Assembly (NCBI GenBank): GCA_026874595.1
Contig: CM049313.1
Coordinates: 20,537,508 to 20,601,507, forward strand
Length of the DNA: 64,000 nt
From: Sipunculus nudus
Taxonomy: Eukaryota > Annelida > Sipuncula > Golfingiida > Sipunculidae
Direction of reading: 5' to 3'
Shown in pieces: positions 10,280 through 59,700 of the stretch. The stretch's first letter is position 1. Each line of letters starts with the position of its first letter. A program made the position numbers and the translations under genes. The notes under the pieces are model-generated. The model was not told where the DNA came from, made no database searches, and worked only from the letters and a program-made list of their open reading frames with translations.

Positions 10280-10798
10280 AAGAGCACTGCAAATGTGCAT
10301 AATACGCCTGTCATGTATCTGGTGACCTCTGACCTCATTAAATATGCATGAATTTTGATGAGAAGATAATTCAGGTGAGAAACTCTATTGGTAAATATGT
10401 ATAATGAGTTTCATGAAAATCAATAGGATTTTTGGTAAGTCACCAAGTTGCCTCCAAAGTGCAGTGACCTCTGACCTCATTAAAAATGCATTAATTTTGC
10501 TGGAAATCAAACTTAGGCGAGATATTTTATTTATTAACAGTTTTATCAAAATCCTTCATATTCTTCGTAAGTTATCACAGTGACACCACAATGTAGCCTA
10601 GTGACCTGTGACCTTATTAAATATGTGTGGATGTTGCCCATAATGGAACTCAGGTGAGATAATCTGTTGGTAAGTAGTTATGGTGAGTTTGTGAAAATCC
10701 ATCAAAGTCGGGTAAATTATCACTGGGAGAGTAAAAGTTAATGGACGGATGGATAGTGGGTACACCATAATACTCCCGTCATATGACGGGCGTATAAA
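10280..10798 (+). mobile_element. Pearl/HINE-like element A1 with three ~140-bp monomers
   Basis: 5' hairpin GCACtgcaaatGTGC (10284-10298) is followed by ATACGCCTGTCATG. There are three diverged monomers starting tgacctctgacctcatta (10323, 10465) and tgacctgtgaccttatta. A ggacggatggat stretch leads to the 3' palindrome CCCGTCATATGACGGG (10775-10790) and cgtataaa. The 3' arm inverted reads ATACGCCCGTCATAT, matching the 5' motif. This resembles the tandem-monomer pearl elements of bivalves, and asymmetric inverted ends are known from Helitron2-type elements. No protein is encoded. Confidence 0.75.
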
Positions 10799-13308
10799 AA
10801 CCAGGTAATGTCAAGCAGTATATATACAGCAAGTAAACTAATAAATTAAGTTTTCCTGGATGGGATGTGTTTAAACAGTTCACACATTTAACTACTGACA
10901 CTTTATTAAGATTAAATGTTGAATATTTCCAAAAATGGACTTCATCACTTTCATATTTTTTTTTCATTTATTATTTAATCAACAGCTGATGTTGAGTTAA
11001 ATGATGATGATAATAACTACTATATTAATACTATTACTATTATAATAATTTAATAATAATAATAATATTTCTTATTTTCTTCTTCTTTACCTTCGTATTA
11101 TTCATCTTTTAGGTCCCTTAGTATTAATATTTCTGACAATATTTTTTTGCCCCTCTGAAAAGAATGCCTCAATATGATGACTCAGCAAGTTGGCAGTCTC
11201 CACTATAATTGAGACAGGTAAAGCAAAAACACTGAAGTAAAGTTGTATTACATTAATATTCTATATGGACATTCAGAGAGTTTATTTAATGGAAAACTCT
11301 TCAGTCTGGAGACTAAACGCCATTTCTCAGAGAATCTGTCTGGCTAAAATGTGATCAATATCATAGTCTAGACCTCCCTGCTGCGGCATAACACTTTCAT
11401 TCAAGACAGACATGTACACTACCTGTATTTTTAGAACAATGCCCTGCTATATAAACAAAATCCAATTCACCCCTCTAATTGGTTTTACAAGGCCCTGCAC
11501 ACAGATAAGTTTCTGAAAGGCATTCGGTAATATCTGATAAGAAAACTACATTGATGGATCTACATAATTACATGATCCGTGATATTGAGGTCACTTGCTG
11601 GTTAGGAGCAGAACTTTTAAGGTACATAAACCTTTGTAATGTTATGTGCATTATATCAAACATTGATGGATCTACATGTTTACATGATCCATAAAAAATG
11701 AGGTCACTTGCTGGTAATGAGGAGAACTTTAAGGTACATAAACATTTGTAATAATATTTGCATTATCTCAAGCCACTAGTTTATTTTGGCTGAATACAAA
11801 AGTTTCCTAGCAAAACCATCACTGAACATGGACTTACTACCTCCAGTTCACCTGTTTTATATGTTGTTATGGTTCACTATGTGAGCAAACACAGTCCACC
11901 TGTTTCTGTTTATAGGGTTTACCATAACAGACTACAAGACCAAAAGGTCTGATTTTGCACATGTACAACAACTCCCAAACAAGCAGAATTAACATAAATG
12001 AAGAAACACAAATGAAACACCAGTTGGAAGCTTGTTTTGTGAAGCTTGAAAAATCTTAATTGTGAAGTTCAGCAACCAGTTGGCATGCACACTGTTTATA
12101 GTTTGCATCATTGATTGCGCCTGGCGCAATTTTTTTTTCCTTACATTGTGTACAGGAGTTAGCAATCAAGTTTTACGACAATATATTGGCAGATAAGATA
12201 TTTTAAGAAGAAAACATTTTATGTAGTGTATGTTTAACATACTTTGTTTTGAATAGGTCCCTTTAATAATGGCAGCTTATGGTATCAAAATACATTGCAA
12301 CTGAATATGTAATCCTTACTGAATGTGGCTCCCATAGAACTTTTGAGCATATAACCATAATTACTTTGCCATTTTATACATCAAATCTGAACCTAAAGTG
12401 GGGCTTTATCTGATTGTCTCAAAGATGCTTTACTTTGCAATTCACATTTAATTGCATTGCTTCTACAGGTACTTGTCAAAGTAATTACATAACACATTCT
12501 ATTTTAGCTACCAAGTAAGTATTAAGACACTTTGAATATATGTATGGTGTCTGAACCTCAAGCAAGCAAAGTACAATAAATAGATTTAGCTGGATTGAAT
12601 TTGCCAATTATTTGCATGCCTTTTATTTACAAACTGGAAAATAATTGCCCTTAAATGTACCATTCTGCTATTTAAAACATCTCAATGATGAGGTTAGCAC
12701 CACCTTGTGCGTCCACAAAGTTCTAATTCCTCCCTCAGATGTCAGCACTAATGGTTATTTATTCAAACAAGACAGATATACAGACAGACACATGCATGAT
12801 CAGATATCGCAATATGCCCCTGGATCACTTCAAAACATTGGCCAATTATCTTCTGTTTGGGATACATCTCACCTCAGAAGATATATTCAAGATTATCCTT
12901 TTATTAGAATCTTAATAAATGAAAAACACTATACTTAGCCATCTAATAATAATAATAGAAATATTCCAAGAGAAAACAAGACACAGTAAAAAATATGACC
13001 TCTGTCCACAGGTGTGGTGGATCTTGATCTAAAGATAAATTAATATATATTTAAGATATACATGTACTCCTTTTCAACCGTTACTATTATACAAACTAAT
13101 TTCTTGCATTCCTTTTTACAAAAAACCCTCCATAAATAATGTAAGTGGTGCCACACATGTACAAATATTTGTGAAAATCTGTCCAACTATATATTGCTGT
13201 ATGGTTAAAGAAAGTGCCATGGCTACTGCTCACAGGTAAGATGATAGAACCAGTGCATCAAAGTGATATTTTTTCTAACAGTAACATAACAAAAATACCA
13301 GGACTTAC

Positions 13309-56700: not shown

Positions 56701-59700
56701 AGAGGTTTCCTGTTACCTTGACCTTTGACCTCATGACCCCGAAATCAATTCGGGTCTTGCTTTTCCAATGGGTCAAATTCAAGTCAAGTTTGAAATCCAT
56801 ACATGAATAAAAGAAGGAATTATCATCCAGAAACTAATTTTTGGACAGATGGCTCCTGTGACCTTCACCTTTGACCTTGTGACCTCAAAATTGAAAGGGT
56901 TCTTCCTCTCTTAGCAGGTGAACTATATGAGCAAGATGAAAGATCTGAGATGAAATGTTTGGCTGAAAATGCATCCACAATCTTTTTAAAGATGTGTCCT
57001 GTGACCTTGACCTTTGACCTCGTGACCCCTAAATCAATGGGACATATACAAGTCAAGTTTAAAATCCATACATCAATAAAAGCAGGAATTATCATCCAGA
57101 AACTAATTTTTGGACAGATGGCTCCTGTGACCTTCACCTTTCACCTTGTGACCTCAAAATTGATAGGGGTCTTCCACTTTTGGCAGGTGAACTTTATGTG
57201 CAAGATGAAAGATCTGAGATGAATTGTTTGGCTGAAAATGCATCCACAATCTTTTTAAAGAGGTTTCCTGTGACCTTGACCTTTGACCTCATGACCCGAA
57301 AATCAATTCGGGTCTTGCTTTTCCAATGGGTCAAATACAAGTCAAGTTTGAAATCCATACATCAATAAAAGAAGGAATTTTCATCCAGAAACTAATTTTT
57401 GGACAGATGGCTCCTGTAACCTTCACCTTTGACCTTGTGACCTCAAAATTGATAGGGGTCTTCTTCTCTTTGCAGGTGAACTATATGTGCAAGATGAAAG
57501 ATCTGAGATGAAATGTTTGGCTGAAAATGCATCCACCATCTTTTTAAAGATGTGTCCTGTGACCTTGACCTTTGAACTCATGACCCCTAAATCAATTTGG
57601 GTCTTGCTTTTCCAATGGGACATATACAAGTCAAGTTTGGAATCCATACATCAATAAAAGCAGGAATTATCATCCAGGAACTAATTTTTGGACAGATGGC
57701 TCCTGTGACCTTCACCTTTGACCTTGTGACCTCAAAACTGATAGGGGTCTTCCTCTATTGGGAGATGACTTATATGTGCAAGATGAAAGGTCTGAGATAA
57801 AATGTTTGGCTGAAAATGCATCCACAATCTTTTTAAAGACGTGTCCTGTGATCTTGACCTTTGACCTCATGACCCCAAAATCAATTGGAGTCTTGCTTTT
57901 TCAATGGGACATATATAAGTCAAGTTTGAAATCAATACATCAATAAAAGCAGGAATTATCATCCAGAAACTATTTTTTGGACAGATGGCTCCTGTGGCCT
58001 TGACCTTTGACCTTGTGACCCCAAAATTTATATGGATCATCCACTATTGGCAAGTGAGCTATATATTCAAGACCTAGGATGATAGTTTGGCTTAAAATGC
58101 ATCCACAGTATCTTTTAAAATGCCAGTCCAGTGACCTTGACCTTTGACCTCATGACCCTAGAACCTATAGGGTTCTTACTTTAGTGGTGGGCCATACATG
58201 AGTCATGTTTGAAATCCATATGGCTATCAACACTGGAGATATCATAAAGAGGTGTGTGATTTTCACCATTTATGGCAATATTCAAGGTCAAGGCCACTAT
58301 CATAGGAAAGGTCATGACCCCAATTTAAATAAACATCATCCCATAATCCATACCTATGTATATGCATAATATAAAAGAAATCTGTCCATTGACTTATAAT
58401 GCTCAGAGTACTGTAAGGTGGCAATTTTGGGGGTATTAAACGGCACGAAAACAAGTAAAGAATAATAGGTGGCGCCACCAGTTTCTGGAACATGACAACC
58501 CTATTCATGATCTTCCATCAACTTGATTTTGGGATAAATCCATGCACGATTTCTTGAGATTTTAAAGAATTTGTGTGATTTTCCCGAAAAATTGGACCTA
58601 TTCAAGGTCAAGGACACTATCCTAGTAAAGGTCATGACCTCATTTTAAATAGGTGTTGTCCTCTTACCCATATCTATACATATACCAAGTTTGGTAAAGT
58701 TCCGTGAAATATTTTATGGGTTATCGCGCCAACAAGATTTATATGCGGCGGCGGCGGCGGCGGTGGCGGTGGGACCGGTATGAAAACATAGTATCCCCCG
58801 ACTTTGTCTGGGGATACAATAATAGCCAATGTAATACAGAAGCTATGATTTACTCAACCAGTCACAGGCAATCAAAACATCAAAGGATCTAATCATTAAT
58901 TCATTATTGCTGTATGTATCTAAAATATAAGGATATGTCATATCGCTAAAGTGACCTGCAAAATAACTGAACTGTAATATATTGCTGAATCAAAATTTAA
59001 AAAAAAATTTATAATATTAGCTTAATCTGGGATAGTGATCTTAGATTTTACACTTATAAATAGTTTTAGTTAGTGTCCATTTGAGTACAACTAGCTGACG
59101 GTATATCTGAAATGGTTCAATGTGACAGTTGTGATAAATGGTTTCTTTTTTCATGTACTCTTGGATATCCAGAACTTAGTAGAAAAAGGTGGATTTGTCA
59201 CATATGTGAACAGGGTAAACTGTAATAAAAATATATATTTCACATGCAAGTTCTTGGTTGTTACATGAACAATTTTTATTTTTAAAGCCATGTTAATTAT
59301 ATTTGAATGGCTATAGTGTTTTAGTTGGATTGGTATACGTTGTATATGTCTCAGTAACTGGTTTTTCATAATATATTTCACTTTGTGCTTATTTTTGCCT
59401 GTTATAACAGTAATGATATTCTGTACATTTTTATTGTATCCCATATTTCTGTATATGTTGTGTTTGTTGTAAATAATTTTGTTGTATAACCAGTATGTGG
59501 CTTCAGTTCACTTCGACAGAATAAAGACACCCAAGAAATATTATTAGTGATAATTGTATTCCCAATATGAATTAAATAATCAAATTCGGTCTTTTATAAT
59601 CATTTAAATTAATTCTTTTGTAATTTCTCACATATGAACAGTGAAAAAAATATTAATGATGAATACTGTTTATGTTAATACCCACATAAATTATATAAAT

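Follow-up and report, generated by a model that had tools for sequence, protein, structure and literature searches.

Published Helitron2 elements carry a 5′ asymmetric terminal inverted repeat (ATIR) that lies 0-2 nt inside the 5′ terminus and makes a 5′ hairpin by pairing with the sequence that follows it. Their 3′ ATIR lies 20-30 nt short of the 3′ terminus, directly upstream of a 3′ hairpin (PMC3627910). HINE and DINE-1 elements are similar in end layout (PMC4067079). The published geometry places a 5′ subterminal inverted repeat (subTIR), which belongs to the 5′ hairpin, 0-4 nt inside the 5′ terminus and a 3′ subTIR before the terminal palindrome (PMC3627910, PMC4067079), the subTIRs being 11-12 bp long and often bearing one mismatch (PMC3627910, PMC7492417). 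In the Cg_HINE elements of the oyster Crassostrea gigas the order is 5′ subTIR, its inverted repeat (IR), a microsatellite (GTCY, GTCC, GTCK), central repeats, 3′ subTIR and palindrome (PMC7492417). Here we describe repeats with the same plan in a 64,000-nt stretch of Sipunculus nudus DNA, referred to below as the window (GCA_026874595.1, contig CM049313.1, 20,537,508-20,601,507, forward strand). A first-pass annotation had singled out six copies of four repeat families, A (A1, A2), B1, B2 and C (C1, C2), all of which we found in place, and had assigned them to a Helitron2/HINE-like group with monomers resembling those of bivalve pearl elements. By anatomy this assignment was right, orientation aside: A, B1, B2 and C very probably represent several non-autonomous elements of the Helentron type (Helitron2/HINE), present as old copies on the minus strand of the window.

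Terminal anatomy and polarity of the elements

When the minus strand is read, the parts of all four families follow one order: a run of T's, a 12-nt 5′ subTIR with an adjoining inverted copy (together the 5′ hairpin), a GTCC/CCG-rich tract and, usually, monomers, followed in five of the six copies by a 3′ subTIR 18-22 nt from the end and then a palindrome. Directly after the T's, the 5′ subTIR pairs with its IR at 10-11 of 12 positions in all copies except A2 (8/12), and the 3′ subTIR is inverted to the 5′ one with 10-12 matches out of 12, again in five copies. The minus strand of B2, for example, reads TT followed by GTATCCCCAGAC, AAA and GTCGGGGGATAC, a CCG tract, 6.1 units of 289 nt, GTCTGGGGATAC and finally GGCACC-TGC-GGTGCC; the 12/12 match between its two ends (56248-56259 against 58806-58817), pointed out earlier, is exact. 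The dinucleotide before the 5′ end is TT in all six copies, at a TT frequency of 0.108 in the window. Compared with shuffled sequences, the 5′ hairpins of five copies fold more favourably as single-stranded DNA (z from -3.2 to -4.9; A2, -1.0), and so do the 3′ palindromes of B1 (-2.7) and B2 (-3.0).

The shared end design proposed in the first-pass annotation is real, but its polarity was reversed, because the published geometry matches the minus strand and the plus-strand order does not fit it. For the same reason we rejected the earlier reading of the supposed 5′ hairpin as the 5′ end of the elements. What had been taken for a 3′ hairpin made from a leading motif is the 5′ subTIR with its IR on the minus strand. 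The supposed 5′ hairpins are in turn the 3′ palindromes, clear in B1 and B2, but only 3-4 bp long and not clearly beating shuffles in A and C. The ACGG- or GCG-rich tract noticed beside the hairpin does exist and corresponds to the HINE microsatellite, but on the minus strand it lies at the 5′ end. GTCB/CCGY words, which were picked after the tracts had been read, occur at 2.4-15.7 per 100 nt beside the 5′ hairpin (nt 28-110), compared with 0-1.6 elsewhere in the element, and do so in all six copies.

The ends of A and C are independent of the hairpins, since they were set by aligning copies with each other. In a self-comparison of the window, A1 and A2 are 81% identical over 540 aligned columns, and T runs mark the limit of their homology at either end. 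C1 and C2 have about 670 nt in common at one end (76%) and 29 nt at the other (86%); the likeness breaks off at ATTTTT at one border and just past CCCTTGT at the opposite one. B1 and B2 are single copies, with 3′ limits taken from the palindrome and lacking homology support. Two additional copies of A came to light (A3 and A4), neither with a recognisable 5′ hairpin.

Whether the families number four is a separate matter. The first approximately 60 nt of B1 and B2 look related (38 columns, 76%, E 0.002, partly low-complexity), so that, judged by their ends, the families probably form three groups rather than the four counted before. The monomers of B1 and B2 are mostly unrelated, which makes the pair comparable to those Cg_HINE families that have related ends and unrelated repeats (PMC7492417). 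A palindrome, GGTGGCGCCACC, lies at 30373, 30522, 30623 and 30772 in the B1 monomers and at 58468 in B2, and an identical stretch of 18 nt around it is common to B1 and B2, whose monomers are otherwise unlike.

The same plan is found on contigs from other sources. A 20-mer from the B2 monomers matched six loci in a prokaryote collection, three of which (L001, L002 and L006) contain arrays and entered the comparison. L003 and L004, both in bacterial records, are single 20-mer matches that served for the motif count only (about 0.5 chance matches of a 20-mer are expected), while L005, of which 900 nt were read, has its match at the contig end and no tandem array was found in it. The L001 and L002 contigs are filed under the Bacteroidetes metagenome-assembled genome Glo_2, and their flanks point to two versions or copies of one locus; the L006 contig is filed under a Bathymodiolus brooksi gill symbiont. 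Their repeats suggest that all three are probably animal host DNA. L001 begins after TTTTT with ATGTCCACCCC and, further on, GGGGGGACAT, and continues with a GTCCG tract, 150-nt monomers, TGGGGTGGACAT and GTACCT-TTC-AGGTAC. L006 contains two elements (L006a and L006b), one with 158-nt monomers, a 3′ subTIR matching at 11/12 and a 7-bp palindrome, the other with 168-nt monomers, a 12/12 match and a 5-bp palindrome with a 10-nt loop. Counting L001/L002 as one locus, these are three families with the same plan, and TT precedes the 5′ end in four cases out of four. The oyster Cg_HINE plan, in the same 5′-to-3′ order, extends to the four families in 64 kb and to these three outside families. No match was obtained with the A monomer in the prokaryote-collection contigs, with A1 in phage records (blast), or in viral contigs scanned with patterns for the A, B2 and C signatures and for a 20-mer with the AGGTCA motif; Rfam likewise gave 0 matches.

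Table 1. Elements, their parts and box sites in the window (z, folding compared with shuffled sequences)
Feature	Position	Strand	Remarks
A1, complete element, 514 nt	10282..10795	-	5′ end 10795, 3′ end 10282; homology with A2 ends at T runs
A1 5′ hairpin	10770..10795	-	subTIR ATACGCCCGTCA 10784-10795, IR 10770-10781, 11/12 pairing; z -3.2
A1 central monomers	10318..10740	-	three of ~140 nt
A1 3′ subTIR	10302..10313	-	TGACAGGCGTAT, 11/12 to 5′ subTIR
A1 3′ palindrome	10284..10298	-	4 bp, weak; formerly read as 5′ hairpin; z -0.3
A2, second A copy	53350..53861	-	3′ subTIR lost, 5′ hairpin decayed
A3, A copy	39607..40475	-	3′ end intact, 5′ hairpin unrecognisable; 5′ limit approximate
A4, diverged A copy	21642..22480	-	3′ end GTGCTCTT preserved, no 5′ end found; approximate 5′ limit
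B1, 1,123 nt	29954..31076	-	single copy; 5′ end 31076
B1 5′ hairpin	31047..31076	-	subTIR 31065-31076, IR 31047-31058; z -4.6
B1 CCG-rich microsatellite-like tract	31012..31035	-	
B1 central monomers	30023..30869	-	~250 nt
B1 3′ subTIR and palindrome	29955..29987	-	subTIR 29976-29987 (10/12), 7-bp palindrome 29955-29973; z -2.7
B2, 2,588 nt	56230..58817	-	single copy; 5′ end 58817
B2 5′ hairpin	58791..58817	-	subTIR GTATCCCCAGAC 58806-58817, IR 58791-58802, 11/12; z -4.1
B2 CCG-rich microsatellite-like tract	58745..58778	-	formerly 'GCG-rich tract'
B2 central array	56408..58220	-	289-nt units x 6.1, each of two halves of ~143 nt
B2 3′ subTIR	56248..56259	-	GTCTGGGGATAC, 12/12
B2 3′ palindrome	56230..56244	-	GGCACC-TGC-GGTGCC, 6 bp; z -3.0
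C1, 2,575 nt	36075..38649	-	5′ end 38649; ends from comparison with C2
C1 5′ hairpin	38621..38649	-	subTIR AGCTCAGCTGAC 38638-38649, IR 38621-38632; z -4.9
C1 tandem array	37065..37270	-	71 bp x 2.8, absent from C2
C1 3′ subTIR and palindrome	36077..36104	-	subTIR 36093-36104 (10/12), weak 3-bp palindrome 36077-36088; z +1.4
C2, 1,874 nt	40698..42571	-	5′ end 42571; ends from comparison with C1
C2 5′ hairpin	42543..42571	-	subTIR as in C1 (AGCTCAGCTGAC) 42560-42571, IR 42543-42554; z -4.1
C2 GTCC microsatellite tract	42498..42534	-	formerly 'ACGG-rich tract'
C2 3′ subTIR and palindrome	40700..40727	-	subTIR 40716-40727 (10/12), 4-bp palindrome 40700-40711; z -1.4
Box AGGTCAnAGGTCA	10323, 10465, 10602, 39654, 39797, 53518, 56430, 56719, 57008, 57277, 57855, 58001, 58138	-	
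Box AGGTCAnAGGTCA	30911	+	

Group assignment, partner and rival identities

A, B and C are new families of an already described kind. By description, not by sequence, they resemble Cg_HINE in having a subTIR with its IR, a GTCC-type microsatellite, central satellite-like repeats, a 3′ subTIR, a palindrome (clear in B1 and B2) and T-rich sites; they differ in monomer length, which in the oyster is mostly 140-180 bp, whereas in the window it is about 140 (A), 250 (B1) or 289 nt, the last as twice about 143 (B2) (PMC7492417). With Helitron2 (PMC3627910) and with Helentron, HINE and DINE-1 elements (PMC4067079) they have in common asymmetric subterminal inverted repeats and a 5′ hairpin and, less clearly, a 3′ palindrome and an apparent preference for T/T; on the side of the differences, no Rep/helicase or endonuclease was seen in the window, and the palindromes of A and C are short. 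The bivalve elements pearl, DTC84 and CvA are also alike as described, being modular, non-autonomous and provided with internal satellite-like repeats (PMC5139131, PMC11136912).

What is known of the group suggests how such elements would move. A Rep/helicase encoded elsewhere would act on them in trans, and one strand would be copied by rolling-circle replication starting at the 5′ subTIR/hairpin end. Copying would stop at the 3′ subTIR and palindrome, and the copy would enter the genome inside a T/T dinucleotide, with no duplication of the target. Selection of this kind would leave the end signals intact as the satellite-like monomer bodies change, which may be why unrelated bodies share one end plan.

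Within this assignment, the single machinery suggested for all families in the first-pass annotation has a rival that leaves the group itself untouched: several Helentron lineages, each with its own subTIR, may move A, B and C separately. A, B and C differ in their subTIRs, most of which agree with their own family only, the 5′ subTIR agreeing best (10-12/12) with its own or its family's 3′ end in A1, B2, C1, C2, L001, L006a and L006b. B1 and B2, related in appearance at the 5′ end, may share a partner. In C. gigas, too, none of 10 autonomous elements was tied to any Cg_HINE (PMC7492417). On the other side, no autonomous element was seen, and a single Rep recognising structure instead of sequence would fit as well. 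Because the subTIRs are unlike, we regard several Helentrons as a little more likely than one, and separate lineages as a reasonably good bet.

The remaining rivals concern the identity of the elements. Cut-and-paste elements with terminal inverted repeats, of the type of miniature inverted-repeat transposable elements (MITEs), would account for an inverted match between both ends, and pearl was first classified among them (PMC5139131, PMC7492417) before being re-filed as a non-autonomous Helentron (PMC7492417). However, in five of the six copies this match is asymmetric (0-1 nt from one end, 18-22 nt from the opposite one), and it forms one arm of a hairpin. The flanks of B1 and B2 have nothing in common and show no visible target duplication, and in A and C the two flanks have just T's in common. 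A MITE-like identity is therefore very unlikely. Still less credible are canonical Helitrons (Helitron1), with 5′-TC and 3′-CTRR ends and A/T insertion: a 3′ hairpin and the lack of target duplication are common to both groups (PMC3627910, PMC4067079), but the 5′ ends here begin with ATAC, TATC, GTATCC or AGCTC, the 3′ ends are CTC, CCC, GCC or ACC, and a 5′ hairpin and a subTIR are present.

How far the ends exceed chance

Two scans and a test with fixed ends bear on the possibility that the common design reflects chance or selective viewing of AT-rich repeats. The first scan, which required no TT flank, was judged too weak: B2 shared the highest score, 23, which is not significant on its own (0.32 expected per shuffled strand), and the two strands gave 13 and 11 candidates as against 12 per shuffled strand. 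The second scan demanded a TT flank, imperfect 12-mers and a palindrome of at least 4 bp. On the minus strand B2 came first (30) and B1 second (27), followed by A1 (26, tied with a candidate at 15313) and C2 (25, tied with one at 52090); the plus strand gave none of the elements, only chance candidates at 26, 26 and 25. Among 60 shuffles, a score of 28 was reached by 0, 27 by 2, 26 by 14 and 25 by 32. B2 and B1 alone thus stand out blind, since shuffles reach the scores of A1 and C2.

With the ends fixed, five of the six copies beat random end pairs, whereas the decayed A2 fails. Among 60,000 random pairs, the score of the element was reached by 17 for A1, 5,284 for A2, 57 for C1 and 27 for C2, and by 8 for B1 and 0 for B2, where the test is less independent because the ends were taken from the hairpins. 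A narrower search had a similar outcome, and with ends displaced by 1-2 nt the fractions were 0.0008-0.0016 for the five copies and 0.29 for A2. For the outside elements, the same number of random pairs drawn from the window yielded 8 (L001), 340 (L002), 1 (L006a) and 17 (L006b). Single hairpins and 6-nt matches are common, and the candidate numbers of the first scan and the chance candidates at 25-26 on both strands in the second do speak for coincidence; yet B2 and B1 exceed nearly all shuffles, the random-end test goes the other way and three outside families have the same plan, so that chance is a most improbable explanation.

Several observations nevertheless weigh against the Helentron-type assignment. 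The settings of the second scan were chosen after the elements were known; A2 and C1 were not picked up by it, and A1 and C2 scored no higher than chance candidates. The ends of B1, B2, L001, L002 and L006 were placed by eye. The 5′ subTIR of B1 scores 10 with both its own and a foreign (L002) 3′ end, and that of L002 agrees better with the 3′ end of L001 (11, same locus) than with its own (9), which ties with L006a. A2, with a 3′ subTIR match of only 7/12, fails both subTIR tests, and the 3′ palindromes of A1 (z -0.3), A2 (-0.7), C1 (+1.4) and C2 (-1.4) are at chance level. Tandem monomers, attributed earlier to every family, are present in A, B1 and B2, but C1 has just the short 71-bp array and none were found in C2. 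The predicted T/T insertion agrees with the 5′ flanks, but on the 3′ side TT follows in only four of the six copies (A1, A2, C1, C2), B1 being flanked by GT and B2 by AA; TT also follows the 3′ ends of the incomplete copies A3 and A4. Joining the flanks of eight copies and searching them against the window revealed no empty site inside it. Finally, no Rep/helicase was recognised by Pfam in 30 of the 41 window open reading frames (ORFs) of at least 90 aa, the only matches lying below the curated cut-offs; these 30 are all such ORFs except nine that fall within the 95-bp array or that of B2 and two near the right end. The longest listed ORF has 136 aa. Nothing of the kind appeared in two of the six frames of 1-14999. 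Coding remains in shorter pieces would escape these scans.

The terminal anatomy, the order and polarity of the parts, the match between 5′ and 3′ subTIRs and the T's at the 5′ flank are direct observations. Our confidence in the Helentron-type assignment is high, though lowered somewhat by A1 and C2, which the blind scan does not set apart from chance, and by the B1 ends, whose coupling is not unique. The plan of T flank, subTIR/IR hairpin, subTIR and palindrome also suggests a route for searching without a repeat library, in which only the better-kept copies stand out.

A recurrent AGGTCA box and other repeats of the window

The monomers of otherwise different families contain a common box composed of direct AGGTCA half-sites. 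Perfect AGGTCAnAGGTCA sites number 14 in the window, with 0.01 expected from shuffles; all lie inside elements (three in A1, one in A2, two in A3, seven in B2 and one, in the opposite orientation, in B1) and 0 in the other approximately 51 kb. The box has the form AGGTCAnAGGTCA in A and AGGTCAAAGGTCA in B2, often with a further half-site. When A and B2 monomers are compared, the 12 best matches all fall on the box segment (16 nt, E 0.004-0.007), and among 13-column stretches its conservation ranks first of 89 in B2 and 12th of 68 in A. The box also occurs in HINE-like monomers on the contigs from two other sources, once in the opposite orientation, but these contigs were found with a 20-mer containing it and are not independent proof. 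Two points weigh against a special link with the elements: the count of 14 is inflated by monomer repetition and stems from three families, and of the 114 AGGTCA half-sites in the window (32 expected from shuffles) 52 lie outside elements, where they are also proportionally above shuffles.

We take AGGTCAnAGGTCA to be a DR1 element of RXR/HNF4-type receptors. One study deals with HNF4 sites in Alu repeats (PMC3252374). Among the matches listed, whose titles and abstract openings were covered, none describes an AGGTCA box in Helitron/HINE or mollusc repeats. The box in unrelated HINE monomers could conceivably serve nuclear receptors as a DR1 site, through which the elements would gain host transcription or germ-line open chromatin, or else be an iteron-like Rep site, a suggestion we make tentatively and consider rather unlikely. 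Should the box prove to have a function, this could explain the persistence of satellite-like monomers in such elements.

The window holds further repeats. A 35-bp tandem array at 1136-1736 (17 copies, 97% matches) is very homogeneous, while the other repeats are decayed. At 8233-8556 there is a 41-bp array with a 123-bp higher-order unit, and at 18619-20546 a 95-bp array whose higher-order unit measures 190 bp (79% versus 96% matches); a repeat with a second copy at 27223-27435 (84%) breaks the latter array at 18820-19037. Two inverted pairs of dispersed repeats, 71-72% alike, lie at 6524-6875 and 49566-49912 and at 52967-53217 and 62563-62800.

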